A stretch of DNA of 64,000 bases from Paenibacillus sp. FSL R7-0273 (GTDB taxonomy: Bacteria; Bacillota; Bacilli; Paenibacillales; Paenibacillaceae), in the NCBI RefSeq assembly GCF_000758625.1, contig NZ_CP009283.1, positions 4,661,501-4,725,500 on the forward strand, read 5' to 3'. Under the pieces are notes generated by a model that worked only from the letters and a program-made list of their open reading frames with translations, ran no database searches and had not been told where the DNA came from. This document shows positions 1,086 to 32,027 of this stretch, piece after piece (position 1 is the first letter of the stretch; every line of letters starts with the position of its first letter). The translations under genes and the position numbers were made by a program.

Positions 1086-1250
1086 TTTGGACTTCCGGCC
1101 GCTGTTGTCTGCAGATTTCCTGATTTTATCCGCTGTTCGCGGTTGAAATCCGCAGACAGCATATGCTTCCGTAGCTAGCTTTTCTGCGAAAAGCTTTCAG
1201 ACGGTCGCAGTCGCTCCTACAGTTCCAAAATTCCCTTCCGCCACTTCTCC
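1086..1250 (+). repeat. Structured intergenic element, family A copy 1
   Basis: The conserved 5' block TTTGGACTTCCGGCCGCTG leads into stem arm GTCTGCAGATTTC (1107-1119), a loop holding a small CCGC/GCGG hairpin, and arm GAAATCCGCAGAC (1145-1157). The conserved 3' block ends in AGTTCCAAAA (1221-1230), whose TCCAAA can pair with the TTTGGA at the start. Twelve of the 13 stem pairs form. Compared with the other copies it carries about 35 extra bases between the second arm and the 3' block. The same element occurs at 10987-11120 and, reversed, at 31902-32027. Confidence 0.75.
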
Positions 1251-1494
1251 TAATAAAAGTATAAAAGTTGAATCTTTATAGCAAGGTTGAAATTCAAGAA
1301 TAAAGGCGAACGTTGCCGCCTTGCAGGCTTTACTCTGCTCCGTTCCTCTAATCATCAAGCTTTTAGAAACCGGAAGCAATCGTCACTTCCGCTAAGACCA
1401 TGCCGTCAGAATCTGCGGCATGGCTAAAGCAAAGGCGGGTTATTGAGCATCCCGCCGTAAACTGCAGAGCTGAATGACCACCAATTGGCCATTC

Positions 1495-3477
1495 CTACTC
1501 AATTATTTCCGTAAAATCAACATTCTCAACGATCCAGCGCTTGCGCGGGTCGACCTTGTCGCCCATCAGCGTGGAGACGCGGCGTTCCGCCTTGGCGGCA
1601 TCCTCAATCTGCACCTGGAGCAGGGTACGGGTATCCTGATTCATCGTGGTTTCCCACAGCTGGTCAGGGTTCATCTCACCAAGCCCCTTATAGCGCTGAA
1701 GCTCAAAGTTCTTGCCGAACTCCTTCAGGTAATTCTGCAGCTCTTCATCGCTCCACGCGTAGCGCACCGTCTCCAGCTTGCCCGATTTGCGGGTCAGCTT
1801 GTACAGCGGCGGCTGGGCAATAAAGACCTTACCGGCATCAATCAGCGGCTTCATGTAACGGTAGAAGAAGGTCAGCAGAAGGACCTGGATATGTGCACCG
1901 TCAGTATCGGCATCAGTCATAATAATGATTTTGGAATAATTGCTGTCTTCTACGGCAAAATCCGGGCCAATCCCTGCACCGATTGCAGAAATAATAGCTT
2001 TGTACTCATCATTCTTCAGAATATCGAGCAGCTTGGCCTTCTCCGGATTCATCGGCTTGCCCTTCAGCGGCAGAATCGCCTGAATCTTGGAATCACGGCC
2101 CTGCTTGGCCGAGCCGCCGGCGGAATCCCCTTCGACGATGAACAGCTCAGTGCGGGTTACATCCTTCGACTGTGCCGGTGAGAGCTTGCCGCCCAGATTG
2201 GAGCTCTCGCTGCGCTTCTTGCCGCTGCGGATCTCATCCCTGGCCTTGCGCGCCGCTTCGCGTGCCTTAGAGGCCTGAATCGATTTCTTCAGCAGGCTCT
2301 GCGCCACCTGCGGATTCTCTTCGAGGAACCGCGCCATGTTCTCAGCCACGATATAATCGACAGCACTGCGGGCAGAGGCGCTGCCAAGCTGGTCCTTGGT
2401 CTGGCCGACAAACTCAACCTCTGACATCTTGACACTGATGACAGCCATCATGCCCTCGCGAAGATCATTCCCTTCCAGGTTCTTGTCTTTTTCCTTCAGC
2501 AGCTGTGTACGGCGGGCGTAATCATTCATCACACGGGTGTAAGCCGTTTTGAACCCGGTCTCATGGGTTCCGCCGCTGCGGGTCGGAATGGAATTGACGA
2601 ATGAGGCAAGTGTCTCTGTATAACCGGCGTTATACTGCAGCGCTACTTCAACCTCAATGTCGTCCTTCTCCGAACTGAAATGAATCACATCATGCAGCGT
2701 ATCCTTGCCTTCATTCAGGAACTGGACAAACTGGCTGGCTCCGCCCTCATAGAAGTATTCGTCCTGGCGTCCGCTCCGTTCGTCGCTAAGCGTGATCCGC
2801 AGTCCCGAGTTCAGGAACGCAATCTCCTGCACCCGCTCTGCAAGCGTATCGTAGCTCAGGGATATGCCGTTTGCAAAGACGCGAATATCCGGCTTGAAGG
2901 TGATCTTCGTACCGGTCTTGTTCGTATTTCCAAGAACCTCGAGGCCGGTCACAGGCTCGCCGACATGCTCCTTGCCGCTCTTGTCCACCCAGTATTCGAA
3001 CCGCTGGCGGTGGGTTTTGCCTTCACGGTAAATTTCGACCTCCAGCCACTCAGACAGGGCGTTGGTGACAGAAGCGCCAACGCCGTGCAGTCCGCCTGAT
3101 TTTTTGTAGCCGGAACCGCCGAATTTACCGCCTGCATGCAGAATCGTAAACACAACCTGCGGCGTCGGCACTCCTGTCTTGTGCATTCCGGTCGGGATGC
3201 CCCGGCCGTTATCGATGACGGTTACCGAACCGTCCTTACGTAATGAAATATCAATTTTGGAACAAAATTTGGCTAAATGCTCATCAACGGCGTTATCCAC
3301 GATTTCCCATACAAGATGGTGCAGTCCCGATGAACTCGTACTGCCGATATACATGCCGGGCCGTTTGCGGACCGCAACCAGACCTTCGAGCACCTGAATG
3401 TCGTCAGCATCGTATCCGGTCGGGCCGGCTAAGCCGTCCTTGGAGACTTTTGCAAACATATCGATCTGTTCGAGCAT
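1495..3477 (-). CDS. parE: DNA topoisomerase IV subunit B (ParE)
   Basis: This is the ATPase subunit of topoisomerase IV, 660 residues, a normal length. The GHKL ATP site shows EIVDNAVDEH near the N-terminus, followed by a GyrB-type transducer domain. The TOPRIM domain has EGDSAGGSAKQGRD and DADTDGAHI (Mg2+-binding acidic residues), and the C-terminus has the GyrB-type RYKGLGEM block. The ATG at 3477 follows an AAGGGGGAG site. It runs in the same direction as parC downstream, but terminator-like hairpins and repeats fill the gap. GyrB is the alternative; the adjacency to parC and the start MLEQIDMFAK favour ParE. Confidence 0.94.
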   Translation of the reverse strand: MLEQIDMFAKVSKDGLAGPTGYDADDIQVLEGLVAVRKRPGMYIGSTSSSGLHHLVWEIVDNAVDEHLAKFCSKIDISLRKDGSVTVIDNGRGIPTGMHKTGVPTPQVVFTILHAGGKFGGSGYKKSGGLHGVGASVTNALSEWLEVEIYREGKTHRQRFEYWVDKSGKEHVGEPVTGLEVLGNTNKTGTKITFKPDIRVFANGISLSYDTLAERVQEIAFLNSGLRITLSDERSGRQDEYFYEGGASQFVQFLNEGKDTLHDVIHFSSEKDDIEVEVALQYNAGYTETLASFVNSIPTRSGGTHETGFKTAYTRVMNDYARRTQLLKEKDKNLEGNDLREGMMAVISVKMSEVEFVGQTKDQLGSASARSAVDYIVAENMARFLEENPQVAQSLLKKSIQASKAREAARKARDEIRSGKKRSESSNLGGKLSPAQSKDVTRTELFIVEGDSAGGSAKQGRDSKIQAILPLKGKPMNPEKAKLLDILKNDEYKAIISAIGAGIGPDFAVEDSNYSKIIIMTDADTDGAHIQVLLLTFFYRYMKPLIDAGKVFIAQPPLYKLTRKSGKLETVRYAWSDEELQNYLKEFGKNFELQRYKGLGEMNPDQLWETTMNQDTRTLLQVQIEDAAKAERRVSTLMGDKVDPRKRWIVENVDFTEIIE

Positions 3478-3548
3478 TCATGCTCCCCCTTATCTCACTT
3501 ACTCATACTCTGAAATGCAAACAAACGTTTTCGTTCACTTTGTACATT

Positions 3549-4538
3549 CTAATTCAAAATATCCCTTTTCGTAAAGACGGCGAATGAAATGATTATCGCG
3601 GCCAGCCCCCAGACAGACAGTACTGCCAGTGAAAAAGGCAGCGTCATCCCCTCAATCGGCGCAGGCGTGCCGGCTAAATACCCCGTAAGCCCCAGGTTCA
3701 CCATAAATAAATACTTTGCGGTCGACCAGGCTGCAGCCATATTCGTCAGGATGGATCCGGCGATCAGTGCGGCCATCATCACAACAATGCTCGCGGCAGT
3801 ACTGCGTACCAGCACCGATACCATAAAAGCAAGCAGTGCGACAACGACGCTAACGAACCAGATCAGCCCTCCCTGCATCAGCAGGTATTGCCACTGCGGC
3901 ACAGAATGCACGCCTGACATGTCCACCGTATCCCCGCTGAGCTGGAAGCCGGTAAACACCGGAATATTAAAGCCCTTATATCCAAAGGCAAGCCCTGAAA
4001 CCAGGTAGCTGATCAGGAATACGGACAGCACAATTAAAGAGACGAACATAAGCAGCGCCGCCAGCTTGCTGAACAGCACCTTCCAGCGTTTTACAGGCCG
4101 GGTCAGCAGCATCTTGATGGTGCCTGTCGTCCGCTCGCCGGACACGAGATCCGAAGCAACCGCCATAATCAGCAGCGGAATGAACAGGGAGACTGAGTTA
4201 TCCAGAAATTCACGGGTAAACGTTACACCGCTGGGCTCATTGGGATTCACATCATGGTCCAGATAATACTGCAGCTGCTGGATAAAAATCCGCCGGTACG
4301 ACTTCCATTCCTCAGGAATGCGGTCACTGCTCAGTGAGTTCTGGTTATCAGTGATCCGCTGCTGGATTTCCAGCCTCCAGTCCGAATTGAACTTGTCCCG
4401 GCTCCGTTCAGCGGCGCGCATCTGCGCGTAGGTAAACATAGGCACAAGCACAAGCAGAATCAGCAGTATAACATAAAAGCGCTTCTTTTTGATAATTTTT
4501 GTACACTCATTACGGATGAGCGGAAGCAGATTAGTCAA
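3549..4538 (-). CDS. ABC-2 type transporter permease
   Basis: This is an integral membrane permease of an ABC exporter (ABC-2/NatB-like), about 329 residues. The first transmembrane helix (KKKRFYVILLILLVLVPMF) is followed by a soluble segment of roughly 90 residues and then five hydrophobic segments, with SGERTTGTIKMLLTRP, a signature-like block of this family, between the first two. A TTG start at 4538 is chosen because GGAAGGTG lies about 6 bases ahead; a GTG at 4547 is in frame but too close to that site. The start overlaps the stop of the ATPase gene upstream, so the two are translationally coupled. The substrate cannot be told from the sequence. Confidence 0.85.
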   Translation of the reverse strand: MTNLLPLIRNECTKIIKKKRFYVILLILLVLVPMFTYAQMRAAERSRDKFNSDWRLEIQQRITDNQNSLSSDRIPEEWKSYRRIFIQQLQYYLDHDVNPNEPSGVTFTREFLDNSVSLFIPLLIMAVASDLVSGERTTGTIKMLLTRPVKRWKVLFSKLAALLMFVSLIVLSVFLISYLVSGLAFGYKGFNIPVFTGFQLSGDTVDMSGVHSVPQWQYLLMQGGLIWFVSVVVALLAFMVSVLVRSTAASIVVMMAALIAGSILTNMAAAWSTAKYLFMVNLGLTGYLAGTPAPIEGMTLPFSLAVLSVWGLAAIIISFAVFTKRDILN

Positions 4539-5511
4539 TAGATTCACCTTCCGTTAGCTTCAAGAATAGCTGTTCCAGTGTGGGGCTGATTTTATGCACG
4601 GCTTTTACCTTAACTCCCGCTTTAACCATGTCAGCAACAATGCCGGGAATCAGGGTCTCGTCCATCAGCGTGATGACAGAGCCTCCGCCCATTCCGGCAA
4701 TTACAGAATCGTCGAGGGTAACCTCCTCAAGCTTAAGCAGCGTAACGCCGGGAAGCTTTTCCAGGATAGCCCTCCCTGCCGGAACAGGAGCAAGGTCCCA
4801 GAGCACATAAGGGGAATTGCGTGCAACAAGCTCGTCTACACCGCCGACAGCCAGCACACGCCCTTTGCTGATAATCGCCACCCGGTCGCACAGCAGCTGG
4901 ATTTCACTAAGCAGATGGCTGGAGACGAACACGGCCAGACCGCCTTCGGCAAGGTTGCGGATGAATTCACGCAGCTCCTTGATCCCTTTGGGGTCCAGTC
5001 CGTTTGTCGGCTCATCCAGAATGAGCAGCCGCGGACGCCCCAGCAGCGCCTGGGCAATGCCAAGCCGCTGCCGCATGCCGAGCGAATAGGTGCTTACCTT
5101 GTCATGAATCCGCTGATCGAGCCGGACAATATCAACCACCTCAGTAATCCGCTGCTCGTCCACTCCGGGCTGCATCCGTGCAAAATGCTGCAGATTTTCC
5201 CAGCCGGTCAGATAGGTATATACCTCCGGATTCTCAACGATCGATCCGACGAATTGGAGCGCTTTTTCCGGATTACGGTTGACATTATAGCCGCAGACCG
5301 TAATCGTCCCCTCTGTCGGACGGATCAGATCCACGAGCATCCGGATGGTTGTTGTTTTGCCGGCTCCGTTAGGACCCAGAAAACCGAAGATTTCCCCCTG
5401 CTTCACATCAAACGTAACATCATCAATGATCCATTTGCGGCTTATTTTCTTGCGGACGCCTTTAACGGACAATACAACCTCTCCGGTCTCCGCCGCCTTT
5501 TCTTTTTCCAT
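4531..5511 (-). CDS. ABC transporter ATP-binding protein (partner of the ABC-2 permease)
   Basis: This is a single-domain ATPase of about 326 residues. It has Walker A GPNGAGKTTT, signature YSLGMRQRLGIAQ, Walker B LLILDEPTNGLDP and the switch SSHLL, followed by a C-terminal extension of about 100 residues typical of DrrA/NatA-like drug or antibiotic exporters. The start MEKEKAAETG (ATG 5511) follows AAGGAG at 10 bases. A longer frame begins at 5535 but has no ribosome site. It forms an operon with the downstream permease, with overlapping genes. The role is probably export of, or resistance to, an amphiphilic compound; this is inference from the family only. Confidence 0.87.
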   Translation of the reverse strand: MEKEKAAETGEVVLSVKGVRKKISRKWIIDDVTFDVKQGEIFGFLGPNGAGKTTTIRMLVDLIRPTEGTITVCGYNVNRNPEKALQFVGSIVENPEVYTYLTGWENLQHFARMQPGVDEQRITEVVDIVRLDQRIHDKVSTYSLGMRQRLGIAQALLGRPRLLILDEPTNGLDPKGIKELREFIRNLAEGGLAVFVSSHLLSEIQLLCDRVAIISKGRVLAVGGVDELVARNSPYVLWDLAPVPAGRAILEKLPGVTLLKLEEVTLDDSVIAGMGGGSVITLMDETLIPGIVADMVKAGVKVKAVHKISPTLEQLFLKLTEGESID

Positions 5512-5569
5512 ATCCCCACAGCTCCTTGCTGACATTCATATCTGGTTCGGGTTCATTCACATTTAATGA

Positions 5570-6514
5570 TTAACGTATCGCCTGCACAATCCGTTCGCTG
5601 ATCCGCTGGTAGCCGTCGCCGTTCGGGTGAAAATGATCACTTGAAAGGTACTTGTCCAGATGGCGGTTGAACAGATCAAAGGTCGGCACCAGGGTCATAT
5701 TGCTGTGCGTATTGATGATATCCATCGCCGCATTGTTCCAGGCTGTAACTGCCTGATTCCCCGGTACAAGCAGATCCTCAATATCGCCGAAGGGGTTATA
5801 CAGACCTACATAGTAAACCTGTGCCTGCGGATTGATCTCCGCAACTGTCTCCAGAATCTCACTCAGCCGCTTGGCAGCCTCAGGCAAAGCTGATAACAGT
5901 GCCTCCGGGGTCAGTTCGTCCTCACCCGGCTTTGGAGTGGAGGTCACAAGCGCACCCGGCTTCCCGTCCAGAATACCGGTTGACTGTACAGAAGCCCCGT
6001 CTGCTGCCGCATTGTCTGCCGGAGCTTCAACACTTCCTGCTCCCTCTTCAGCCTGAACGCCGGTCCCGTTGCCCAAAATATCAGAGCCCCTGAACAGGTC
6101 ATTGCCGCCGATGGATATAAGCACGACATTTGCCTGCCGCAGCGCGTACTGCACGCCCTCCTCCTGCAGCTTCGTCTGCAGCCCGGAGGTGGTCAGTCCA
6201 TTGATTCCCATGTTCCCGATCAGCCCGGCTGTACCGCCGGCTCCGCTCAGCCCGTCCAGCGCCCGTCTGACAAACCCGCTGCCGCTGTTGTCACCTGTAC
6301 CCTTGGCCAGGGAATCACCCAGCGCCAGAATCCGCAATTCGCCTTCAGCAGCGGCTTCAGGCGCTTCTGTCACCTGCGGCAGGGAGCTGGTCAGCGCTTC
6401 ACCCTGCGGGTTGATAATATCGCCCACTGCATATACAAAGCCCACGATTAAAAGAAGTGTAGCCGCTATGGAAATCACGCTTACGCTGCGCCAGGTCCAT
6501 TTTGCATCCTTCAA
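5570..6514 (-). CDS. Membrane-anchored SGNH/GDSL esterase-lipase
   Basis: This is an SGNH-fold hydrolase of 314 residues tethered outside the membrane by one N-terminal helix (about residues 10-30). Block I is ILALGDSLAKG with nucleophile Ser about 68, block III is SIGGND, and block V is SSDHFHPNGDGY with the catalytic Asp and His. A low-complexity Gly/Ala/Asp insert (around residues 150-195) follows GGND. A TTG start at 6514 is chosen because GGAGGG lies 6-7 bases upstream; the longer ATG frame to 6553 would place that site inside the gene. The family includes YpmR-like lipases; the substrate is unknown. The gene after it (3') is the unrelated ABC pair, 58 bases away. Confidence 0.85.
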   Translation of the reverse strand: MKDAKWTWRSVSVISIAATLLLIVGFVYAVGDIINPQGEALTSSLPQVTEAPEAAAEGELRILALGDSLAKGTGDNSGSGFVRRALDGLSGAGGTAGLIGNMGINGLTTSGLQTKLQEEGVQYALRQANVVLISIGGNDLFRGSDILGNGTGVQAEEGAGSVEAPADNAAADGASVQSTGILDGKPGALVTSTPKPGEDELTPEALLSALPEAAKRLSEILETVAEINPQAQVYYVGLYNPFGDIEDLLVPGNQAVTAWNNAAMDIINTHSNMTLVPTFDLFNRHLDKYLSSDHFHPNGDGYQRISERIVQAIR

Positions 6515-6712
6515 AGCAATCCCTCCATATGCCTCTATTCTCCATTGTTCCACATTTTACAAACTTCTTAACGTATGTAAATAAACATAATTCTTCTATA
6601 CACAATTTGCAAATGAGCAGCAGGTATTACAATGCCGGCAAGCCCATTTCACTTTCTTTTAATATTGGGGAGGTATGCTGGAGAAAACTACGTGACTGAG
6701 GGGTGGACCGGA

Positions 6713-7690: not shown

Positions 7691-7710
7691 AGCTCCTGGA
7701 TTTCTGCAAA

Positions 7711-7766
7711 AAAAAGGACTGCACTGGAACGGGCCGCTTTCGCGGCTTGTCCAGGCAGTCCTTTTA
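7711..7766. terminator. Bidirectional intrinsic terminator
   Basis: AAAAGGACTGC (7712-7722) pairs with GCAGTCCTTTT (7755-7765), with a nested GCCGC-TTTC-GCGGC hairpin. There are A and T tracts on the two sides. It serves the phospholipase-like gene from the left and the CAP-protein gene from the right. Confidence 0.85.
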
Positions 7767-7795
7767 TATATGAGCTGCAGAGAGTGTTGTACGGT

Positions 7796-8554: not shown

Positions 8555-8747
8555 TATGCCATCTCCTTGTTCTTGTTGTATTTACAGTGCTGAAAGTATG
8601 CCGGCACCAAATATTACAATCTTGTCATTTCTTCCTCAGTCATTGTAGCACAAAACTATCAGCTGTGCGCTGCTAAATGTTTACAGTACTAGATTTGCAG
8701 GACGGCTTGTCCAGCAAGAGAACCGGGTAAGATGCTGTGCAGGCATT

Positions 8748-8783
8748 CAAAAAACTGCCGCCCGGTCGAGGCAGCAGTCTTTG
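8748..8783 (-). terminator. Intrinsic terminator of the WG-repeat gene
   Basis: On the minus strand CTGCTGCC pairs with GGCGGCAG around a short loop and is followed by six T residues, about 50 bases past the stop at 8834. Confidence 0.65.
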
Positions 8784-8833
8784 CTGTGTAGTAGGCTACT
8801 TATTCTATTTATCGGCCCGGCGCTTAGTTGTAT

Positions 8834-10798
8834 TTAGTGAAAAGACTGCCAGAAATCGCCTTCTGTCGAGATCAGGCCCATAATTTCAGCATATGGAATC
8901 CGGAAGGTCGGAAAGCCTGCCGCGTATGGAGCAATCTCATATGGCGCAAAATACAGATACAGTGCCTCTTCATCCACATAAAACGGCTGATCGGCGGTAA
9001 TCCCCTTATACGTATCCGGAAAAATATAAGTATACTGTGGGTCATTAGCGATCTGCTTGCCGACGATGTCGCTAAGCTTCTCGACATATCTGCTGCCCGG
9101 CTTGAACAGGTCACTTAGCGTATAAAATCTGCCGCTGCGCAGATTGACATGCTCATACAGCATCGTAGGCATACCATGGGCTGCGCCGAACGGGTAATTA
9201 TAGCCGCTGAGCTCGAGCACCAGCAGATTTTTACGGAAAAATTCAACGGCGAAGTCTCCGGTATAACTGAAATCCTGCGCTGCTCCTCCGCTTCCCACGC
9301 CCTCTGCCTTGGAGAGGCTGCGCAGCCTGCTGTTGACGGTTTTGGATACTTCGATATCGGCAATGCCCTCAATCACCGGATAGTAGACGAGGTAGTCCCG
9401 GTTCGGCTTGTATTTCTTCTCCAGTACGGAGTAAGGCGGACGGAGCGGAATAACGCCGTTCTGACGCCATACCTGCTTGCCCCTGCGGTCGTAGTAAGCG
9501 GTACGCTGATCAATATCCGCACGGATCAGGCTGCCGCTGAAGGATAATGTGCCGGAGCCGGCAATCACGGGCGGCTGGGATGCTTTTTTACCGCTTTTGT
9601 CGATAAAATAGGTGTCCTTGGCATCAAAAACCGAAGCCAGCCCATGCTGATAGTTATTCACTCCGAGCAGCGGATGATTGCTGAGAACCCTGCCCGTTAC
9701 GGCATCTACTATTACATAACGCGATCCCCGGTACGGCTGGTCGGCATAGAGCGGAGTTCCCAGCGCAACGCGGTTTTCTCCCAGCTGCTGCACCTCATAA
9801 TAGGTGGCCGGAATGATCTGCTTCCCCTGCTTATCGATCAGCCCGTAGGCGTTCCCGTAATCCTCCGCTGTATTGATTACCGCCCGGCCCTCCGAAAATG
9901 GCAGCGCCGACGTAAATTGCGGCTTGATTGCCACAGTGCCGTCCAGGTTAAGATAACCGTATTTGCCGTTCTCTGTCTCCTGGTAGGCCAGCAGCCCGTC
10001 GCCCGGATTTCCGACAAACGGATGTTTGTACGTATGCAGCACCTTTCCATCCGGATCAATCAGCGCATATTCGCCTTCGGCGATTTTGACCAAAGCTGTC
10101 CCGTTCATGAAATCGCCCGCATCCAGATAGACCGGAGGCAGCACTTCCTTGCCCTGCGCATCGATATAGCCGTAGCGGGAGCCGCCTGCTGTAGTACTTT
10201 GCTTGGAAAAGAGCGCCCGCCCCTCATGCAGCGAATTCAGATAATCATAGCGCGCCGCAGTGACTTCCTTACCTTTTTCATCGATCAGTGTGTACCCCTT
10301 AGCATCCGACACTACCGCCCGGCCTTCCGCAAAAGGGGCAATGAAGGAGTAGATTGGCTTTACTTTTTCACGGCCGCTGCTGTCAATCAGCCCGCTGCTG
10401 TTCTTACGCTGCACGATTGCCAGCCCGTTCTCCTGAAAATCCTCGGCATACTCATACCTCGGTTCAATTGCGGTCCGCCCTTCATTGTTGATATAGCCCC
10501 ACAGCGTCCCTTCCTTGGTCTTAAAAGGCGCCGGATGCAGCACTTCCGCCCGCAGACCGTTCACATCCGCAGCCTCGAGGAACTGGAGCGGTTCCAGCGG
10601 CTTAATATAATAATCAACACGGTACAGTCCCGCCTCTGCGGGGATCGTCACGAACAGATCATCATCGGCACGGATGAAATCCTCCTCCTGCTGAGCCACA
10701 TATTCATTCCACCCGATCCCGTCCCATTTCCACACTTCCGTCTGCAGCAGACCGTTGTCATTCCCTTTTGCCAGCTCATTCAGCCTAATTCTCAGCAT
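8834..10798 (-). CDS. WG (KWG-leptospira) repeat protein with C-terminal DUF3298 domain
   Basis: This is a 654-residue protein with no signal peptide, so probably cytosolic. About residues 95-430 hold at least eight WG-type beta repeats: units ending in patterns such as GYINNEGRTAIEPRYEYAED, GLIDSSGREKVKPIYSFIAP and GYLNLDGTVAIKPQFTSALP. The C-terminal 200 residues match DUF3298/RsiV-like proteins, ending in YLYFAPYEIAPYAAG. The N-terminal 70 residues are not recognised. WG repeats are thought to mediate protein interactions; no enzymatic function can be assigned. ATG 10798 follows AAGGGAG. It appears monocistronic with its own terminator. Confidence 0.85.
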   Translation of the reverse strand: MLRIRLNELAKGNDNGLLQTEVWKWDGIGWNEYVAQQEEDFIRADDDLFVTIPAEAGLYRVDYYIKPLEPLQFLEAADVNGLRAEVLHPAPFKTKEGTLWGYINNEGRTAIEPRYEYAEDFQENGLAIVQRKNSSGLIDSSGREKVKPIYSFIAPFAEGRAVVSDAKGYTLIDEKGKEVTAARYDYLNSLHEGRALFSKQSTTAGGSRYGYIDAQGKEVLPPVYLDAGDFMNGTALVKIAEGEYALIDPDGKVLHTYKHPFVGNPGDGLLAYQETENGKYGYLNLDGTVAIKPQFTSALPFSEGRAVINTAEDYGNAYGLIDKQGKQIIPATYYEVQQLGENRVALGTPLYADQPYRGSRYVIVDAVTGRVLSNHPLLGVNNYQHGLASVFDAKDTYFIDKSGKKASQPPVIAGSGTLSFSGSLIRADIDQRTAYYDRRGKQVWRQNGVIPLRPPYSVLEKKYKPNRDYLVYYPVIEGIADIEVSKTVNSRLRSLSKAEGVGSGGAAQDFSYTGDFAVEFFRKNLLVLELSGYNYPFGAAHGMPTMLYEHVNLRSGRFYTLSDLFKPGSRYVEKLSDIVGKQIANDPQYTYIFPDTYKGITADQPFYVDEEALYLYFAPYEIAPYAAGFPTFRIPYAEIMGLISTEGDFWQSFH

Positions 10799-10986: not shown

Positions 10987-11120
10987 TTTTTGGACTTCCG
11001 GCCGCTGTTGTCTTCGGATTTCCTTTATTTTTACCGCTGTCAGCGGGTGAAATCCGAAGACAAAGGCGGACACTACCGTTCCTCCAGTTCCAAAATCTGC
11101 TCCGTCCCTTTCATCCTCTT
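10987..11120 (+). repeat. Structured intergenic element, family A copy 2
   Basis: It has the same 5' block (TTTTTGGACTTCCGGCCGC). The stem arm GTCTTCGGATTTC (11010-11022) pairs perfectly over 13 bp with GAAATCCGAAGAC (11049-11061). The loop carries a CCGCT/AGCGG mini-hairpin, and the 3' block ends in CAGTTCCAAAA (11085-11095). Relative to copy 1, stem position 5 changed from G:C to T:A, a paired substitution. Confidence 0.8.
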
Positions 11121-23616: not shown

Positions 23617-23639
23617 TGTAAGTCCCTCCTGTTTAGGAA

Positions 23640-24545: not shown

Positions 24546-24628
24546 TGCAGATGTTCCCTTTCTTTATATATAATACGAATTCACAAAGGCCCATCCCAGG
24601 ATGGACCTTTCTTGTTTAAATGTTCTTT

Positions 24629-25105: not shown

Positions 25106-25354
25106 CTGCTGATTTCTCCCCCCACTGCAATATGGAATGCACTATTCCTCCTCCACTATACCGTGAACTACCGGTAAAATTCTACCAAAATTTACTGTTC
25201 TCCCGCTGTATCTCCATTTATCAACCGCATTGTGCATTTTGCCGATGCCGCAGCCGCCATTTTCTATCCGATTGGACATTCTGCGCATATACATCACCCA
25301 GCCCTGATCCTATAGTTAAGACAGGAAGCATGCGCAGAAAGGTGGAGGACAGCT

Positions 25355-27109
25355 ATGGAAGCAGTAAAGGATCACGGCAGCCGGGAGTTTTACGAAGACC
25401 TGCTCCTGTCGATGATAGAGCCCCTGAAGGAACGTTTCAGCCCGGGAAAAGCCAGGCTTCAGCTTGGCGCTGAAACAGCCGGATACGGTAACAGAGTCGC
25501 GGGAATGGAGGGTTTCTCGCGCCTGCTATGGGGACTGGTCCCGTATTGGGCCGGCGGCGGTAAAGATGTCAGCCTGCTGCCGGTTTATCTGGAGGGGCTG
25601 GCGAATGGAACCAATCCAGCTTCTCCCGAGTATTGGGGGGAGCTGCACCATAAAGACCAGCGGATGGTGGAAATGGCCGCTATCGCTTTCGGGCTGCTGA
25701 TGATTCCGGAGAAATTATGGGAGCCATTGGCGGAGCCTAGCCGTAACCATCTGGCAGCATGGCTGGGGCAGATTAATCTATACTCCCTGGCCGATAATAA
25801 CTGGCAGTATTTTAATGTGATCACCAACCTGGCTCTAAAGCATATAGGCATGCCCTACAGCAATGAGCGTTTGGAAGAAGCAATGGCTAAATATGAGTCC
25901 TTCTATTTGGGGAACGGCTGGTATTCCGACGGGCTGCGTCCTCAGAAGGATTACTATATTTCGTTTGCGATTCATTTTTATTGTCTTCTCTACGCCAAGT
26001 TTGTGGGCGCGGAGGATCCGGAAAGATCAGCGCTTTTCAAAGCGAGAGCCAGGGAGTTTGCCGGAACCTTTATCTACTGGTTTGATGATGAAGGCAAAGC
26101 CCTGCCCTTCGGAAGGTCCATGGCCTACCGGTTTGCCCAGGCAGCCTTTTGGAGTGTTAGCGCCATGCTGGAGCTTGATGTTCTGCCAATGGGCGTATTA
26201 AAAGGACTTATAGAGCGGCATATGGAGCAGTGGCTGCGGCAGCCTATTTTTGATAATGGCGGCGTGTTAACAATAGGTTACGCTTACCCCAATCTGAACA
26301 TGTCAGAAGGCTATAATGCCTCCGGCTCCCCATACTGGGCCTTCAAAAGCTTCGCGCTGCTTGCCCTTCCTGCGGACCACAAGTTCTGGACCGTGAAAAG
26401 TGAGCCTCTTCCCAAGCTGGAACAGCGGCTGGCCATCGCCGAGTGTGACATGCTTATCTGCCGCCGCAGCTATGATGTCACCGCGCTTACGGCCGGGCAA
26501 TATCCGGTTCTGCAGCTTACCCACGCAGCGGAAAAATACGCAAAGTTCGCCTATTCCACCCGCTTCGGATTCAGCTGCCCCAGATCGTACAGTCATTTGC
26601 ATGAGGCGGGAACGGACAGCATGCTGGCTTTTTACGTTCACGATATGATTTATGTGAGAAAAGCCTGCCTGGAATATAACGTCACCGGAACAGAGGTGTA
26701 TTCCAGATGGAGCCCGGTGGAAGGCATTGAGGTCGAGACTTGGCTCATTCCAACAGATGAAGGGCATATCCGGCGCCATATGATTACCAGCGAATTGGAG
26801 TGTACCGCTTATGACTGCGGCTTTGCTTATCCCGACCTGCCCGGAGAGACCCGCAGAGAGCTCAGCGGTACCTCCGCTGCTGTCATAGATACCAACGGCA
26901 GAAGCTCAGCAGCATCTGATACCGGCAGACCTATGGTGATCGCCAGCGCACCGAATACCAATCTGATCTTCCCGACTACAGCAATCCCGGCGATCGAATA
27001 CCGGATTCCAAGGGGAAGCATTCGTGTCGAAACCAGGATTGAGGCGGATTTTGCAGATGTCAAAATACAGATAGGACGTGGACATGGCTATGAGATATAC
27101 AATCAGTGA
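25355..27109 (+). CDS. DUF2264 domain protein, carbohydrate metabolism
   Basis: This is a 584-residue cytosolic protein. The N-terminal 350 residues match DUF2264 (GFSRLLWGLVPYWAGG, DNNWQYFNVITNLAL, YLGNGWYSDGLRPQKDYY, GRSMAYRFAQAAFWS), an alpha/alpha-barrel-like fold related to glycosyl hydrolases and lyases. The rest is a beta-rich domain. The ATG at 25355 has GGAGG six bases ahead. Its stop overlaps the downstream GH88 start, so both are made together. DUF2264 proteins commonly sit in clusters for rhamnogalacturonan or uronic-acid polysaccharides. The activity itself is not established. Confidence 0.85.
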   Translation: MEAVKDHGSREFYEDLLLSMIEPLKERFSPGKARLQLGAETAGYGNRVAGMEGFSRLLWGLVPYWAGGGKDVSLLPVYLEGLANGTNPASPEYWGELHHKDQRMVEMAAIAFGLLMIPEKLWEPLAEPSRNHLAAWLGQINLYSLADNNWQYFNVITNLALKHIGMPYSNERLEEAMAKYESFYLGNGWYSDGLRPQKDYYISFAIHFYCLLYAKFVGAEDPERSALFKARAREFAGTFIYWFDDEGKALPFGRSMAYRFAQAAFWSVSAMLELDVLPMGVLKGLIERHMEQWLRQPIFDNGGVLTIGYAYPNLNMSEGYNASGSPYWAFKSFALLALPADHKFWTVKSEPLPKLEQRLAIAECDMLICRRSYDVTALTAGQYPVLQLTHAAEKYAKFAYSTRFGFSCPRSYSHLHEAGTDSMLAFYVHDMIYVRKACLEYNVTGTEVYSRWSPVEGIEVETWLIPTDEGHIRRHMITSELECTAYDCGFAYPDLPGETRRELSGTSAAVIDTNGRSSAASDTGRPMVIASAPNTNLIFPTTAIPAIEYRIPRGSIRVETRIEADFADVKIQIGRGHGYEIYNQ

Positions 27110-28223
27110 AACGGACCGCCAGTGGGCGGCCCGGGTCTGGGACAAGCTTGAAGTAAAATTAAAAGCAGAATGCCGGCGCGTCGGTCCGATTATGCCCTAT
27201 ATTCCAGTCAATGGAACCTACGAGGACATGGCTGAAAAGAATCTCGTCTGGTGGACTAACGGCTTCTGGGCCGGCATTCTGTGGCAGATGTATCATGCTA
27301 CCAAGGAGGATCTATACAAAGAAACAGCTGAACAAATCGGAGCCAAACTGGATCAGGGGCTGGCTGACTATACAGGCCTTGACCATGATCTGGGATTTCT
27401 CTGGTTACATACGGCAGTGGCCGATTACCGGCTTACCGGAAATCAGCAGTCGCGTATCCGCGGGCTTCATGCAGCAGGCATTCTCGCCGGACGGTTTCAG
27501 CCGGCCGGCGAATATATCCGGGCCTGGAACGAAGGGCAGGAAGGCGTCGCCATTGTGGATTGCCTGATGAACCTCCCCCTGCTCTATTGGGCAGCGGATC
27601 AGCGCAACGATTCCGGCCTCAAGCAGATTGCCGTCAAGCATGCTGACATGGCGCTGCAGTACGTATTACGGCCGGATGGCTCCTGTAACCATCTTGTGCA
27701 ATTTGATACGGAGACCGGTGAGTATCTGGATAATCCGGGCGGGCAAGGGTATGAGAGCGGCTCTTCCTGGACCCGCGGCCAGTCCTGGGCCGTCTATGGC
27801 ATGGCGCTTTCCTACCGCTATACGCTGAAGCAGGAGTACCTGGATGCCGCCAAACGGTCAGCACATTATTTTATCGCGAATGCAGCCGTCAATGATTACG
27901 AGGTACCGATTGATTTTCGTTCGCCGGAAGAGCCTGTGTATGTTGATACAACTGCTGCCGTATGCGCTGCCTGCGGACTGCTCGAGCTATCCGAATTTGT
28001 AGGTGAGTATGAGAAAGGGCTGTATATAAAAGCTGCGGTCCGGCTCCTGAGGAAGATCGATGAGAAATTCTGTGACTGGAACCCCGGGACGGATTCCATC
28101 GTCTCCCACGGCTCCGGAAGATATCACCGGGAGTCGGACCGTGAAGTGCCGATTATTTACGGCGACTACTTTTTTCTGGAGGCCATCCTGCGGCTGTTAG
28201 ACCGGGATTTTCTGATCTGGTAG
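27084..28223 (+). CDS. Unsaturated glucuronyl hydrolase (GH88 family)
   Basis: This is a 379-residue cytosolic enzyme that removes unsaturated uronic acid residues left at oligosaccharide ends by polysaccharide lyases. The two aspartates required in GH88 are visible in GLDHDLGFLW (about Asp102) and AIVDCLMNLPLLYWA (about Asp159), along with WTRGQSWAVYG and the C-terminal IIYGDYFFLEAILRL. The ATG at 27084 has AGGA upstream and overlaps the DUF2264 gene by 26 bases. GH105 (rhamnogalacturonyl hydrolase) is the close alternative; the HD and VDC motifs suit GH88 better. Confidence 0.88.
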   Translation: MAMRYTISETDRQWAARVWDKLEVKLKAECRRVGPIMPYIPVNGTYEDMAEKNLVWWTNGFWAGILWQMYHATKEDLYKETAEQIGAKLDQGLADYTGLDHDLGFLWLHTAVADYRLTGNQQSRIRGLHAAGILAGRFQPAGEYIRAWNEGQEGVAIVDCLMNLPLLYWAADQRNDSGLKQIAVKHADMALQYVLRPDGSCNHLVQFDTETGEYLDNPGGQGYESGSSWTRGQSWAVYGMALSYRYTLKQEYLDAAKRSAHYFIANAAVNDYEVPIDFRSPEEPVYVDTTAAVCAACGLLELSEFVGEYEKGLYIKAAVRLLRKIDEKFCDWNPGTDSIVSHGSGRYHRESDREVPIIYGDYFFLEAILRLLDRDFLIW

Positions 28224-28224
28224 C

Positions 28225-29208
28225 TTATTCAATATATCGCATGGCCAGCTCTGTATGATATCTGGACAGATTCCTTGAAAACTGCTGATCCGGATATCCG
28301 CGGTGCAGCAGCTTCAGCCCGGCCGAGATTAAGGCGATGTGATGATGGAAGCGGTAAAAGCGCATTCTGTCAGGATCAAGGGAATCGTTCTGCAAATAGC
28401 GGTAATACTCGCCGAATCTGAATTCCAGAAAGCTATGCTCATGCTCGATATCAAAAAAACGCACGCCCTCAATGTCAATCAGATAAGGCTCCAGCCTCTC
28501 ATTCACCAGCAGATGGTCGGGGCCGAGTTCATCGTGGATCAGCCCGTATTCTGTCCTTGGACTGATCCTGGCTGCAAGCTCCTCCAGTTTATCCAGCAGC
28601 TTCTCTTTGTTAGTGTTAATGAGGTCGATATACTGCACTGCGTAAGCTAACTGCAGCTTTGCATTATCCTGCAGCACCAGATGACATTGGCCTGTTGTAC
28701 GTACGTTGCGATGCTGCTCAGGTGCCCCGAAGGTACTTCTTTTAATGTTATGCATTGCAGTAACCAGAGTCCCTACCTGCTGCAAAACATACTCCTTAAC
28801 CTCCGGATCAGGATGGCTGAAATAGGCTTCTGCCTTTTGCCCGTCAATATACTCAACCAGCGCGTAATCAAATGTATAATCCGTTCTGTCATTATTCAAG
28901 TCGTAAAGCGCCGGCGTGCGGATGGAATGCTCCTTCAAAAACCTGTTGCTGGATGCAAACAGGCCGCTGCCGTAGGATCCTGCATTGATCGTATTTTGTT
29001 CGATTTCCTGCTGAAAAAAATTCATGGACAGGTCCCACACATAGAGCACACTGCTGAAACCATTAGTGCAGTCCACCTTATAAACTACCTTTTGAGCACC
29101 ACCATGCATTCTGGACACACCTGAAACCACATAGGAGCTTCCAAAAACCTGGCCGATATATTCCTGCAGCGCAAGGGGGTCGAGGGGGCAGCTAACGTTA
29201 ACGTTCAT
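28225..29208 (-). CDS. Aminoglycoside phosphotransferase-fold (APH) kinase-like protein
   Basis: This is a 327-residue member of the APH/choline-kinase superfamily. The ATP-binding N-lobe includes VVYKVDC and the hinge ALVEYIDG. The catalytic loop is GLIHDELGPDHLLVN (Asp base and metal-binding residues), followed by YLIDIEG in place of DFG. These proteins phosphorylate small alcohols, sugars or antibiotics; nothing here indicates a resistance enzyme in particular. ATG 29208 has AGGAG upstream. It converges with the GH88 gene, one base between stops, with no room for a separate terminator. Confidence 0.82.
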   Translation of the reverse strand: MNVNVSCPLDPLALQEYIGQVFGSSYVVSGVSRMHGGAQKVVYKVDCTNGFSSVLYVWDLSMNFFQQEIEQNTINAGSYGSGLFASSNRFLKEHSIRTPALYDLNNDRTDYTFDYALVEYIDGQKAEAYFSHPDPEVKEYVLQQVGTLVTAMHNIKRSTFGAPEQHRNVRTTGQCHLVLQDNAKLQLAYAVQYIDLINTNKEKLLDKLEELAARISPRTEYGLIHDELGPDHLLVNERLEPYLIDIEGVRFFDIEHEHSFLEFRFGEYYRYLQNDSLDPDRMRFYRFHHHIALISAGLKLLHRGYPDQQFSRNLSRYHTELAMRYIE

Positions 29209-29273
29209 TGAACAACACTCCTGATCATTGTATTGCCGGCTAACTCACTGTATAATAATCCCTGGAAAAAATA

Positions 29274-29374
29274 TAGACTGTTTCTTTCCGTTCTGCTATG
29301 ATGTTGAATAAGGTCTTGAAAAAAATAGCCATACGCAGCAGCCCTTCGATTTGATCGAGCGGCTGCTTTTTTTG
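29274..29374 (+). ncRNA. Candidate short orphan transcript (promoter plus strong terminator, no ORF)
   Basis: TAGACT (29274-29279), 17 bases, TATGAT (29297-29302) forms a plausible sigma-A promoter. About 30 bases beyond its expected start lies a strong intrinsic terminator: AGCAGCC (29337-29343), a nested CTTCGAT/ATCGAG stem, GGCTGCT (29361-29367) and seven T. There is no plus-strand gene upstream to terminate. The predicted RNA of about 65 nt has no start codon with a ribosome site. It could be a small RNA or the remnant of a lost gene. Confidence 0.35.
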
Positions 29375-29545
29375 TTGCTGCCTGGCTGAATGAACCGGTT
29401 CAGAGAACATAGCCGATCCCTTACCCGCGTATATCCTCGCTGACCTTTTGCATGCTTTTTGCGTGTCCTTCGTGTGCGCCTGCCTTTTGTAGCCCTTCGC
29501 ATGTCCTCCAGGTCCCATCCGCGTGCCTCCACATCCTCTACCCGG

Positions 29546-29730
29546 CTAACGGACTCAGATGACCTTATCCGCGGCAAAATCCCGGGTATCACATTCTAAC
29601 GGACTCCAGCGCCGTTATTTGTCTAATTCAGCCTCAAAATAGCCTGCCCGGGGCGAAATAAGGTCATCTCGGTCCGTTAGCTCTCCCAAATGCGCCGTTT
29701 CGCAAAATTAACGGCTGTGGTGTCCGTCCC
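29546..29730. repeat. Four-unit dyad repeat, family B copy 2
   Basis: Units begin at 29546 and 29596 (direct) and 29658 and 29708 (inverted). Unit 1 is identical over 23 bases to unit 1 at 11454. Unit 2 (CTAACGGACTCCAGCGCCG then TTAT) shows clearly that each unit is itself palindromic (TAACGG/CCGTTA). The unit spacing matches the 11.5-kb array to within one base, while the intervening 27-39 base spacers are unrelated in sequence. Confidence 0.75.
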
Positions 29731-29829
29731 TCGTATTTAAGAGTTTCTCTCACAAATACTCACTCATTCGCAGGATTTCAACGTACTGGAGTAACAGGGA
29801 GTGCGAGTTAATGGTGGGGGTTGAGCTGC

Positions 29830-30095
29830 CAGGAGCGCTAGGGGCATGCAGGAACAAAAGCAGCGTATGACGTGCTTTAATCCAAGGATATCCTGCATAC
29901 TCCACTTGGCCCATGGAGGTTCACCCTCCCAGATCTCTACGGGTCTATGCCCTCACATTCCTTCGTTACACCTGTCCATGGCGTGGAGACCGATAGCGTT
30001 TAGTTAACGGGTCAAGGCCCTTCCGGACACACACACTCGGTTCTCTTATACATGCAATGTTGTAGAATCCTGCGAACAAGTCAATTCTCGTGGTT
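29830..30095 (-). ncRNA. Candidate IS-encoded bridge (seek) RNA region downstream of the transposase
   Basis: About 250 non-coding bases follow the transposase stop on its own strand. They contain GGAGG/CCTCC, CTCCA/TGGAG and further short stems in a run (for example 29925-29965). IS110-family elements encode a bridge RNA in their longer non-coding end; in the IS1111 subgroup this lies downstream of the transposase. Position and length fit, but I cannot define target- and donor-binding loops by eye. IS ends are not marked by inverted repeats in this family, so the boundaries are approximate. Confidence 0.35.
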
Positions 30096-30100
30096 CCAAT

Positions 30101-31378
30101 TTATGCGGCAACTGGGGCTGCAGATGCACTTTGGTATGATTCCCCTCGCTGGACCATACCGATCAGGATACGAGCCAGCTTGCCAATCAGTTTAAAAAGC
30201 GACGCCTGCTTCTTCATGCCCCGTTCCTGGTTGTGCGTATGCCACCGCTTAAAATCCGGGTTTTGCCGCACCAGATTCAGCATTCCCCAGTAGAAGTGCT
30301 TGCGGAGCATGCTGTCCCCCCGCTTGGAGAGCTTGATTTGCCCTTTGAACTTACCGGAGGTACACTCAGCCAGATTCAAACCGGCTCGTCGTAACAATTG
30401 CCTGCCGTGCGCATACAGGCGCAGGTCGCCCGCTGAGGCTAGAATGGCTGCCAGCGTCATCGTGCCAAGACCCGGGATACTTCGTAATTGCTCAGCCAAA
30501 GGAATTTCTTGCAGGATCCGCCCGAGGGCCTCCTCTATTTCACCGAGCATGACGGTTACCTGCTTGTAGGTTTGAATCAGGCGGTAGAGGTCTTGCCGTG
30601 CTTCTTCCGTTGCTCTCGTATCCCCAATACTGCGCGCTGCTGCTGCAAGTAACGCGCCTGCTTTCGCTCTGCCACTGACGCCGGAGGCCCGTTTCATCCC
30701 TTGCTTGCGCCAAAGTTTAATCACCTCATCCACACTCAGTCTCTTTAGATCACATGGCAAAGGACAAGCGTGGAGCGATGCTAGCGAACGAAGCACTGTC
30801 CAGTCCGGAAAGACTTGGCGGAATTCGGGGAAATAAAGGTCGATCCAGCGGACGATTCGATTGCCCAAGCTTATCGATTGCTTTACCCAGTACTCTCTGT
30901 CACTCATGAGTGTCTTTAGACGCTCAAAAGTGGCTTCCTGAGTCACATAGTCTGTGTAGTAGCCGCGACTGACCACGTCTGCAATGACAAGCGCATCCTT
31001 GGGGTCATTCTTGGATGGGCTATTGTCCCGGTTTTCCTTATTACGGTGGGTGGTCACCGGGTTCACCAACACCACCTCAATCCCTTGTTGAAGCAGCCAA
31101 TTGGCAAGGTTAAACCAGTAATGCCCCGTAGGTTCAAGTCCAATAAGAAGGGATGTTAGCCGGTGCTTGCTCTGGGCTTCTTTTACCCAACGCAAAAGCT
31201 TCTCAAAGCCTTCTAGCGTATTGGGAAAAGACAGATGGCGGGGAGTAAGCGAACGCCCGCGAAAATCGGTCATCTGCGCGGCGTGCATATCCTTAGCAAT
31301 GTCGATCCCAACCACTACATGCTGCACCGTAATTCGCTCAATACGTTGATTCGTTGTTTCGTTTCGGTTAAACTTCAT
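30101..31378 (-). CDS. IS110-family transposase (DEDD recombinase)
   Basis: This is an intact 425-residue transposase. The N-terminal RuvC-like DEDD domain has GIDIAKDMHAAQ (Asp), LIGLEPTGHYW (Glu) and DPKDALVIADV (two Asp). The C-terminal Tnp20 domain has IPGLGTMTLAAILAS (helix-hairpin-helix) and LAECTSGKFKG with LSKRGDSMLRK around the proposed catalytic serine. The ATG at 31378 is preceded by AGGAGG at eight bases, but this site lies inside a long hairpin. The element appears functional, with no frameshift. It sits in gene-free repeat DNA, so it interrupts no recognisable gene. GC content and codon use are not obviously foreign. Confidence 0.93.
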   Translation of the reverse strand: MKFNRNETTNQRIERITVQHVVVGIDIAKDMHAAQMTDFRGRSLTPRHLSFPNTLEGFEKLLRWVKEAQSKHRLTSLLIGLEPTGHYWFNLANWLLQQGIEVVLVNPVTTHRNKENRDNSPSKNDPKDALVIADVVSRGYYTDYVTQEATFERLKTLMSDREYWVKQSISLGNRIVRWIDLYFPEFRQVFPDWTVLRSLASLHACPLPCDLKRLSVDEVIKLWRKQGMKRASGVSGRAKAGALLAAAARSIGDTRATEEARQDLYRLIQTYKQVTVMLGEIEEALGRILQEIPLAEQLRSIPGLGTMTLAAILASAGDLRLYAHGRQLLRRAGLNLAECTSGKFKGQIKLSKRGDSMLRKHFYWGMLNLVRQNPDFKRWHTHNQERGMKKQASLFKLIGKLARILIGMVQRGESYQSASAAPVAA

Positions 31379-31382
31379 AGTA

Positions 31383-31467
31383 AGCGCCTCCTGATGAGTT
31401 TTTGGGCTTCCGACCCCTTATACTCTCATCATACGAGGCGCTCTTGTTTTTGTCTAAGCCAATAACT
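31383..31467 (-). promoter_or_regulatory. Transposase promoter and SD-sequestering hairpin
   Basis: On the minus strand TAGACA, 17 bases, TATGAT forms a good promoter whose -10 box lies within the stem region. The arms AGCGCCTC (plus-strand 31383-31390) and GAGGCGCT (31435-31442), extended by GATGAG/CTCATC, pair so that the AGGAGG ribosome site is buried. RNA started at this promoter would begin after the outer arm, so only read-through RNA entering from outside could form the full hairpin. Confidence 0.5.
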
Positions 31468-31606
31468 TAGCGAATACAGGAATGTTTAGCCGCCGTGAGA
31501 GTGGCCGGCGGGTAGCCTCTACAAAGTTTTTCGGTTGTGATGTGCCGGGCTTTTGCACACATGCAGGGAATTGCGGCTTGCTTGAGTTTGAACTAATGGT
31601 GAGGTT

Positions 31607-31722
31607 GGTGCGGCCAGTCGAGGTTAGACATTTGCAGTTAGTTTGCTGAGCCGAGGTTACACTAATATTGCCTTTGGTTTACTGTGCCGGGGTTTTACTA
31701 ACATTGCCGCTAGCGTGCTGGC
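31607..31722 (+). repeat. Degenerate tandem repeat, about 36-bp period
   Basis: Three successive units share a core resembling GTGCCGGGGTTTTACTAACA (other versions GAGCCGAGGTTACACTAATA and CCAGTCGAGGTTAGACATTT) and a following TTGC. Identity between the last two units is high; the first is decayed. Confidence 0.45.
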
Positions 31723-31837
31723 GGACTTTGCCCAAAAGCTGATTTGGCATTTAGGCCTTTTTTATTGGTCTTTTGTTCTTTTTCTTGGTCTATTTTTTTC
31801 TTGGCGTTTTGTTTCGGAGCGCAGCAATCGAAACACC

Positions 31838-31875
31838 AAAAAGCGTTTGCTATGCAGTGCTAGCAAACGCTTTTT
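31838..31875. terminator. Perfect 15-bp hairpin, bidirectional terminator-like
   Basis: AAAAAGCGTTTGCTA pairs with TAGCAAACGCTTTTT around an 8-base loop. A and T tails on both sides allow termination in both directions. On the minus strand it is the first strong terminator after mglC. Confidence 0.7.
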
Positions 31876-31901
31876 GCTGCTTTCCCCCACCTTGGCGAGG
31901 T

Positions 31902-32027
31902 GATGGGAGTAACGGAGGGAAAGTTTGGAGCTGGAGGAGCGGAGCGACCGCCTTTGTTCTCGAATTCCCACCGCAAAGGCGGTATGGAATCAAGGAATTC
32001 GAGAACAACAGCGGCCGGAAGCCCAAA
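31902..32027 (-). repeat. Structured intergenic element, family A copy 3 (reversed)
   Basis: Read on the minus strand it has the 5' block TTTGGGCTTCCGGCCGCTG and stem arms GTTCTCGAATTCC and GGAATTCGAGAAC (plus-strand positions 31956-31968 and 31994-32006; 13 of 13 pairs). The loop carries an ACCGC/GCGGT mini-hairpin, and the 3' block ends CCAGCTCCAAAC. Four stem positions differ from copy 2 and all four are compensated on the other arm. Confidence 0.8.

Follow-up and report, generated by a model that had tools for sequence, protein, structure and literature searches.

In a 64,000-nucleotide stretch of the Paenibacillus sp. FSL R7-0273 chromosome (NZ_CP009283.1, positions 4,661,501 to 4,725,500; hereafter "the window"), three intergenic copies of a structured element built around a 13-bp stem belong to a family of miniature inverted-repeat transposable elements (MITEs), and sequence comparisons support well its assignment as a genus-wide family of the IS630 type. 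On balance, we consider it likely that this family is non-autonomous and that its hairpin now acts in transcribed intergenic RNA. At the level of sequence, the elements display MITE anatomy, a transposon sharing their ends, covariation of paired positions, an orientation bias, conserved positions and replacement of the hairpin; we further infer that the hairpin functions as RNA.

The first-pass annotation of this DNA counted three copies because only the window had been surveyed. Within it, the 18-nt 5′ block of the element occurs four times at up to three mismatches, against 0.05 expected; in the whole genome, a 21-nt 5′ block matches 47 places at the same tolerance, against three for a reversed control pattern, and a BLAST search with copy 2 returned 49 hits. 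A sequence-only model (R1), built from 31 copies of the same genome with base pairs left out, matched 75 of 100 genomes: FSL R7-0273 itself, every one of the 60 further genomes of the genus and 14 of the 39 that represent other genera of the order. An exact pattern of the two conserved blocks with a free interior was present in 68 of 100 genomes of the genus; the part of these matches that was listed individually was read by eye only. A scan of named genomes yielded at least 120 stretches, of which two came from 'Bacillus sp. FJAT-27264' and the others carry the name Paenibacillus; the first 80 of these loci were used for most counts and the other 40 form a separate set of further loci. One locus, L040, lacks the 3′ block. 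A 216-bp element is found as near-identical copies at unrelated places (L005-L009, L015, L017). Tandem arrays also occur, with three copies spaced by about 215 bp (G000:C1:5005171-5005759) and three at 271 bp (6156613-6157273) in the FSL R7-0273 genome, and five at about 199 bp in L151:4512-5384. Carriage of the repeat by phages or plasmids was considered and rejected, since phage sequences gave no match and plasmids a single weak one (Paenibacillus guangzhouensis, 74.5% over 79% of the query). The alignment from the FSL R7-0273 genome used 31 of 41 located copies, seven insert-bearing copies and three near-duplicates being left out. All statistics treat copies as independent, an assumption that nested, tandem and orthologous copies violate; the genome sets also overlap (L066 and L184, like L065 and L204, look like the same stretches), and p-values are therefore indicative only.

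The ends of the elements identify the kind of transposon to which they are related. Copy 1 and 14 other copies among the 41 scanned in this genome have termini that match TATATAGATTGAACT and its complement with at most four errors, which makes them 214-256 bp long. In a set of 137 copies from many genomes, 49 have inverted repeats complementary at 12 or more of 15 positions near 53-58 nt from the core, and only 2 have them when a control offset is used; among the 40 further named loci, such a terminal inverted repeat (TIR) was present in 17 of 33 measurable copies, against none at the control offset. When the terminal sequence was searched alone, it revealed a pair 1,168 bp apart that encloses a transposase (G000:C1:2362557-2363724, L276). 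Two overlapping frames in this transposon, which ends in TATATAAGTTGAACT...AGTTCAATCTATATA, correspond to the two halves of an IS630-family transposase (Pfam DDE_3, NCBIfam transpos_IS630), the first frame alone falling just below the transpos_IS630 cut-off (99.5 against 100 bits). The same transposon is found at full length, with closely similar ends, in genomes G028 (three copies, 88% identical), G032 and G083. The FSL R7-0273 genome also holds a second, diverged IS630-family copy (L291, G000:C1:2674741-2675730; 69% identical, its terminal regions lying outside the match) and a 111-bp terminal-repeat element from which the hairpin core is deleted (L277, G000:C1:1561358-1561468).

Copy 1 illustrates the complete anatomy. 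It is longer than the span 1086-1250 at first assigned to it: the full element covers 251 bp of the forward strand (1030-1280; core 1086-1229), is bounded by the IS630-type TIRs TATACAGATTAACT ... AGTTGAATCTTTATA and lies nested within the loop of an older, decayed copy, the arms of which can still be read on either side of it, on the same strand (5′ half 986-1029 with stem arm 997-1013; 3′ half 1281-1320 with stem arm 1292-1308). Element ends mostly read TA...TA (CG...CG in L010), which is compatible with TA targeting. The TIRs, the transposon with the same ends and the nested insertion therefore point to IS630-type MITE anatomy; together with the near-identical dispersed copies, they bear out the mobile repeat that had been listed among the options for this element.

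Each of the three window copies has counterparts at orthologous positions in other genomes. Copy 1 was recovered at the orthologous position in 17 of 18 relatives. For copy 2, 13 of 18 relatives have the 5′ block and 10 have both blocks. For copy 3, the element is carried by 16 of 19 relatives, or by 17 of 20 loci once its own genome is included (these 20 were fetched out of 84 matching genomes), and partial remains persist in two of the three relatives that lack it. Four relatives were compared along copy 1. In three of them (L239, L241, L242), the core outside its optional module is 91-93% identical, while flanks and TIR arms are 28-68% identical and the non-TIR flanks 28-59%; in the nearest one (L238), all parts of copy 1 are 95-100% identical. 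The module, of about 40 nt, is present in some orthologues and absent from others at all three loci. Within the window it is confined to copy 1, where its 41 nt (1159-1199, forward strand) form a hairpin of their own, AGCTTTTCTGCGAAAAGCT. In two orthologues of copy 2 from different species (L258, L259), the module is split at about the same spot by sequence resembling the end of an insertion sequence (GGGGTCCCATAAG / GGGCTGTCCCATAAG), which we take to be IS1182-like.

The central hairpin is strongly folded in each window copy, with z = -5.3 (copy 1), -6.7 (copy 2) and -8.5 (copy 3) against shuffled sequence. Its 13-bp arms were re-read from the sequence in all three copies and agree with the first-pass annotation. 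In copy 1, where an inverted-repeat search also recovered them, GTCTGCAGATTTC (1107-1119) faces GAAATCCGCAGAC (1145-1157) on the forward strand with one A-C mismatch; in copy 2 (core 10989-11094, forward strand), GTCTTCGGATTTC (11010-11022) faces GAAATCCGAAGAC (11049-11061); in copy 3 (core with extended stem 31909-32043, reverse strand), GTTCTCGAATTCC (32006-31994) faces GGAATTCGAGAAC (31968-31956). Copies 2 and 3 do differ at four stem positions, every one of them compensated; between copies 1 and 2, a single compensated change accompanies the A-C mismatch. At copy 3, pairing continues outward to GTAAC (32043-32039) / GTTAC (31913-31909). Copies 2 and 3 are among those without recognisable TIRs.

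Since the stem and loop of the named-genome loci were left unconstrained by the search pattern, copies were gathered regardless of pairing. The first 80 loci gave 82 distinct cores; their 8-nt arms are of 39 kinds, and Watson-Crick pairs fill 962 of 1066 stem cells. The other 40 loci gave 40 cores, 21 kinds of arm and 478 of 520 such cells. Covariation, the check proposed by the first-pass annotation, was then measured on 66 copies, 65 of them from other genomes, with the structure taken from the FSL R7-0273 copies. These 65 were the near-full-length ones of 108 matches (the rest being partial, insert-bearing, opposite-strand or low-scoring), and the set contains the five tandem copies from L151. 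Overall, 95.5% of cells pair; the outer helix, which comprises the TTTGGA pairing noted before and its neighbours, is 97.5% paired, and the small hairpin in the loop 96.9%, so that both had rightly been described as kept. Pairs with double changes (17 against 8.4 in shuffles), double-changed cells (165 against 44) and the covariation score (0.224 against 0.078, and at most 0.056 when partners were slid) all exceeded the controls, none of 500 shuffles being as high on any of the three. The check was thus positive on most measures, and covariation also went beyond the controls on four of five measures in 17 orthologues of copy 3. Because the search required the blocks CCGGCCGCTGTT and AAAGGCG..CGC, these do not vary among the 66 copies. 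Departures from pairing are conserved as well: an A-C mismatch at one stem position in 34 of the 66 copies, a G-A mismatch in all 31 FSL R7-0273 copies aligned (columns 33/93) and a one-sided internal loop.

Reading the RNA strand from wobble pairs was rejected. Over all 31 pairs, A.C outnumbers G.T by 52 to 6, the excess lying mostly in one column pair that holds 34 of the 52; the ratio is 18 to 6 without that column pair and 6 to 4 in the 13-bp stem alone. At the A-C site, sense and antisense copies did not differ significantly (p = 0.10), and stem type was not significantly associated with orientation either (p = 0.08). The choice of strand therefore rests mainly on gene orientation.

The claim that structure rather than sequence is kept holds as a description of the pattern. 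At the one orthologous place compared in this way, much of that pattern comes from the replacement of whole hairpins, not from stepwise compensation. Arm identity reaches at least 88% in 47 of the 136 pairs formed by the 17 orthologues of copy 3; the hairpins enclosed by these arms are 48-56% identical in 21 of the 47 pairs, 65-75% in 7 and 90-100% in 19. In L071 and L075, which hold the copy 3 place in two species, the arms are 98% identical and the hairpins 54%. At the copy 2 place, L268, L269 and L270 likewise have common outer arms and different hairpins. Conversely, two copies in opposite orientation about 0.7 kb apart in L090 have 50 of 51 hairpin bases in common (by eye) and different outer arms. 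In 65 of the first 80 named loci, the same 8-nt arm was shared by 16 of 105 pairs within an organism versus 96 of 1975 between organisms. The outer arms of copy 3 vary too, in matched pairs (GTAAC/GTTAC, GTACC/GGTAC, GTGGC/GCCAC). Hairpins are swapped en bloc, probably by gene conversion between copies, which is the simplest account of their replacement, the mechanism itself being deduced from such comparisons. Copies with poor TIRs keep their stem as well as those with good TIRs (11.76 versus 11.96 of 13 pairs Watson-Crick, p = 0.51; 11.62 versus 11.94, p = 0.78, without L072-L090), and pairing is therefore, among copies recognisable by their conserved blocks, not simply a by-product of recent mobility.

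The copies are also oriented with respect to genes. Sense here means the reverse complement of the strand described by the first-pass annotation, and gene calls are mechanical open reading frames scored by codon usage, with starts taken mechanically. Of 141 copies, 75 are sense and 17 antisense in co-directional regions, 16 lie between convergent and 6 between divergent genes, and the rest were left unassigned; seven of the 17 antisense copies come from loci fetched as orthologues of copy 3. Without L072-L090 (126 copies), 73 of 83 copies in co-directional regions are sense and 10 antisense. The FSL R7-0273 genome has 34 sense and 2 antisense copies, copy 3, itself antisense, being among four left unassigned, and the 40 further named loci have 24 and 5. 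Copies that bear TIRs are already biased, by 31 to 2. A weaker bias in copies without TIRs (27 to 12) was rejected, as it becomes 26 to 5 without L072-L090; the apparent weakness arose mostly because one lineage was counted many times. The element as a terminator, or as a strictly 3′ untranslated feature, was rejected too, since a simple scan for terminator-like sites showed no clear rule: in 61 sense regions there were 10 before the element, 2 after it and 49 with none, and in 12 convergent regions 5 before and 0 after. With the origin set at position 1 and the terminus at the midpoint, the leading strand carries the reverse complement in 40 of 47 matches; dnaA at chromosome position 87 and the GC skew of the fetched loci agree with the assumed origin. 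A function tied to the replication strand was rejected, as this bias is confounded with gene direction and the informative loci follow genes: L017 and L038, the only co-directional copies of this genome that run against replication, both follow genes.

Taken together, these observations can be accommodated by the following model. A non-autonomous MITE of the IS630 (Tc1/mariner-like) type, about 214-256 bp when complete and made of TIRs near TATATAGATTGAACT with a long imperfect hairpin between them, would be moved by an IS630 transposase supplied in trans, probably into TA sites to judge from its ends, and presumably with TA duplication. After insertion in a transcribed intergenic region, the TIRs would decay while the hairpin core stays, and the hairpin sequence would be replaced en bloc by another well-paired hairpin, most likely through gene conversion between copies. 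Sense copies would be co-transcribed, and their RNA hairpin would serve as an intercistronic or 3′ boundary element, either through RNase III processing or through protection from 3′ exonucleases. Such a boundary role of the co-transcribed hairpin is most likely why the paired form outlasts the loss of the TIRs. The structured RNA that the first-pass annotation had named as another option is possible, the sense-strand bias and the conserved positions being in its favour.

Several observations weigh against this model. On the side of mobility, a clear TIR is found in only 49 of the 137 copies, the other 88 belonging to the family by their core, and a handful of the 49 (e.g. L030, L090, L148) depart from the TATA type to which most of them belong. 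The transposon was matched in just 7 of 60 genomes, FSL R7-0273 included and some of the matches partial, and therefore cannot be the sole mobiliser. A clean empty site with a TA duplication was not found, the neighbour of L015 having no clear orthologue in 10 relatives; L240 was examined as an empty site and rejected, since copy 1 was lost there by a deletion that also took part of the older copy. On the side of RNA, further pair types, one of the five covariation measures, were not above shuffles in the 66 copies (33 against 30.9; 101 of 500 shuffles as high) and fell below them in the 17 orthologues of copy 3 (22 against 27.4). Whichever strand is read, the variable stem has few wobble pairs (4 G.T and 6 A.C among 791 cells outside columns 45/94), whereas an RNA helix that changes by point mutation would usually show more of them. 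The copy 3 lineage goes against the sense rule, with seven antisense and two sense copies, the latter possibly other copies, in L072-L090. Copies were gathered through their conserved blocks, so that badly decayed ones are under-represented, and conversion from other copies could preserve pairing without any host function.

This last point leads to the strongest rival, which is possible though rather unlikely: a purely selfish MITE would have no host function, its pairing would be kept by conversion from a few paired copies, and its orientation bias would reflect the removal of harmful antisense insertions. En bloc replacement of the hairpin at an orthologous place, the neighbouring L090 copies with almost the same hairpin and the higher arm sharing within organisms than between them are all expected from it, while the pairing kept in copies without recognisable TIRs, the matched variation of the copy 3 outer arms and a copy 1 core far better conserved than the neighbouring intergenic DNA in three of four relatives are not. 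The sense bias already present in copies that bear TIRs counts in its favour, and so does the excess of convergent over divergent positions; Croucher et al. interpreted enrichment between convergent genes as pointing to parasitic elements (excerpted text of PMC3049150). Two options are thus left, a host-level role of the transcribed hairpin and homogenisation by conversion, and we slightly favour the first, by analogy with repeats reported to alter the fate of mRNA (bcr3, ERIC, Correia). In a more specific form of it, which we put forward only tentatively, the family would be a domesticated MITE that provides an exchangeable RNA hairpin module at fixed intergenic sockets, the parE-parC interval being an example; selection would keep the pairing for mRNA processing or stability, and conversion among dozens of copies would replace the hairpin and the 40-nt module. 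If that was the case, covariation would be a record of cassette exchange, not of stepwise compensatory mutation.

Correction of the palindrome at the DNA level, in which a replication fork that switches templates would rewrite one arm from the other with no selection on structure, seems improbable. The very small number of wobble or half-changed states in the variable stem is what it predicts, and the strength of the palindromes, together with the tandem arrays and internal deletions seen at copies, would suit such a process. It should nevertheless remove the A-C and G-A mismatches, and their conservation therefore argues against automatic correction; the replacements, moreover, move arms and loop together and resemble other copies.

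That the element is a cis-regulatory RNA for downstream genes (a riboswitch or a leader) and not a mobile repeat appears very improbable. Strong covariation, the conserved one-sided internal loop and the intergenic position would all be expected of such an RNA; TIRs and a transposon with the same ends would not, and some copies lie between convergent genes. The neighbours of the window copies are unrelated to one another (parE/parC, a WG-repeat protein gene and mglC), and Rfam gave no match at gathering score in the window, four copy loci yielding only sub-threshold microRNA or small nucleolar RNA matches. Least credible of all is mobilisation of the hairpin as single-stranded DNA by a REP/RAYT or IS200/IS605 system, which would explain the replichore strand bias and is disfavoured because no Y1 transposase (PF01797) was found in the FSL R7-0273 genome by a search whose control gave matches in 5 of 14 genomes, E. 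coli among them, because L017 and L038 follow genes and not replication, and because complete elements are 214-256 bp long with ends in common with a DDE transposon. The first of these results also disfavours one form of the protein-recognised DNA hairpin earlier listed as an option, a hairpin handled by a Y1 transposase.

In the window, parE, parC, the WG-repeat gene and the mglC-like gene all lie on the reverse strand. Copy 1 is located between parE (topoisomerase IV subunit B, 1495-3477), upstream by direction of transcription, and parC (topoisomerase IV subunit A, 1-920, cut by the window end; Pfam DNA_topoisoIV) downstream. A WG-repeat / DUF3298 protein gene (8834-10798) follows copy 2. 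Copy 3 is placed after an mglC-like sugar ABC transporter permease gene (32108-33115) and before a terminator-like hairpin of the intrinsic type read from the sequence (AGCGTTTGCT...AGCAAACGCTTTTT, 31836-31875, reverse strand), and hairpins resembling the latter occur in the relatives aligned. Near copy 3, we also observed an IS110-family (RNA-guided) transposase gene (30101-31378), whose adjoining segment (31400-31492) has identical copies at G000:C1:1384690 and 935509.

REP and BIME sequences are high-copy intergenic palindromes that form tandem clusters. The Paenibacillus family resembles them in both respects and differs from REP/RAYT systems by its 214-256 bp elements, its IS630-type TIRs and the lack of a Y1 transposase hit in its genome; REPs are 20-40 bp long and carry GTAG and CGTC tags (as excerpted from PMC3733652). 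By mechanism, the closest known system is RUP of pneumococcus, which the excerpts of PMC3049150 describe as a 107-bp, non-autonomous, intergenic and tightly folded MITE with TIRs like those of IS630-Spn1, over-represented between convergent genes. As far as these descriptions allow a comparison, the Paenibacillus family is likewise non-autonomous, intergenic and tightly folded, with IS630-family ends in the same host and an excess between convergent genes. According to the same excerpts (PMC3049150), S. mitis has fewer of the pneumococcal repeats and other streptococci have very few, whereas the Paenibacillus family is genus-wide and differs from RUP as described there by its orthologous positions in many species, its covarying inner stem and its en bloc hairpin replacement. 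In the Bacillus cereus group, excerpts of PMC3446304 describe the repeats bcr1-bcr18, of which bcr1-3 are MITE-like and often lie in untranslated regions or between operon genes, and report that bcr3 in a transcript correlates with decay rate (3.6 versus 2.5, which we take as half-lives); the likeness, many intergenic copies in a Gram-positive group, is one of the descriptions in these excerpts and not of sequence. Correia, ERIC and BOX elements, compared by description only and found in different hosts, are reported in the text excerpted from PMC3049150 to alter expression or to be RNase sites when transcribed. No description of the Paenibacillus family was met in the literature searched, both Paenibacillus-specific and general, a search outside of which most subscription journals fell. 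The kind of element, an IS630-related MITE, is thus known; what is new is the combination of a genus-wide spread with copies at fixed places, a covarying stem in copies without recognisable TIRs and the replacement of hairpins en bloc.

Covariation is widely taken as evidence for a conserved RNA; our results suggest that exchange between repeats may create a strong signal of it at an orthologous site, which calls for caution in RNA discovery. Bacterial MITEs are commonly viewed as decaying parasites. The Paenibacillus family persists across its genus at fixed gene neighbourhoods, with its hairpin kept where the transposition ends are no longer recognisable, and its dozens of natural copies per genome provide a test bed for the effects of intercistronic hairpins on mRNA.

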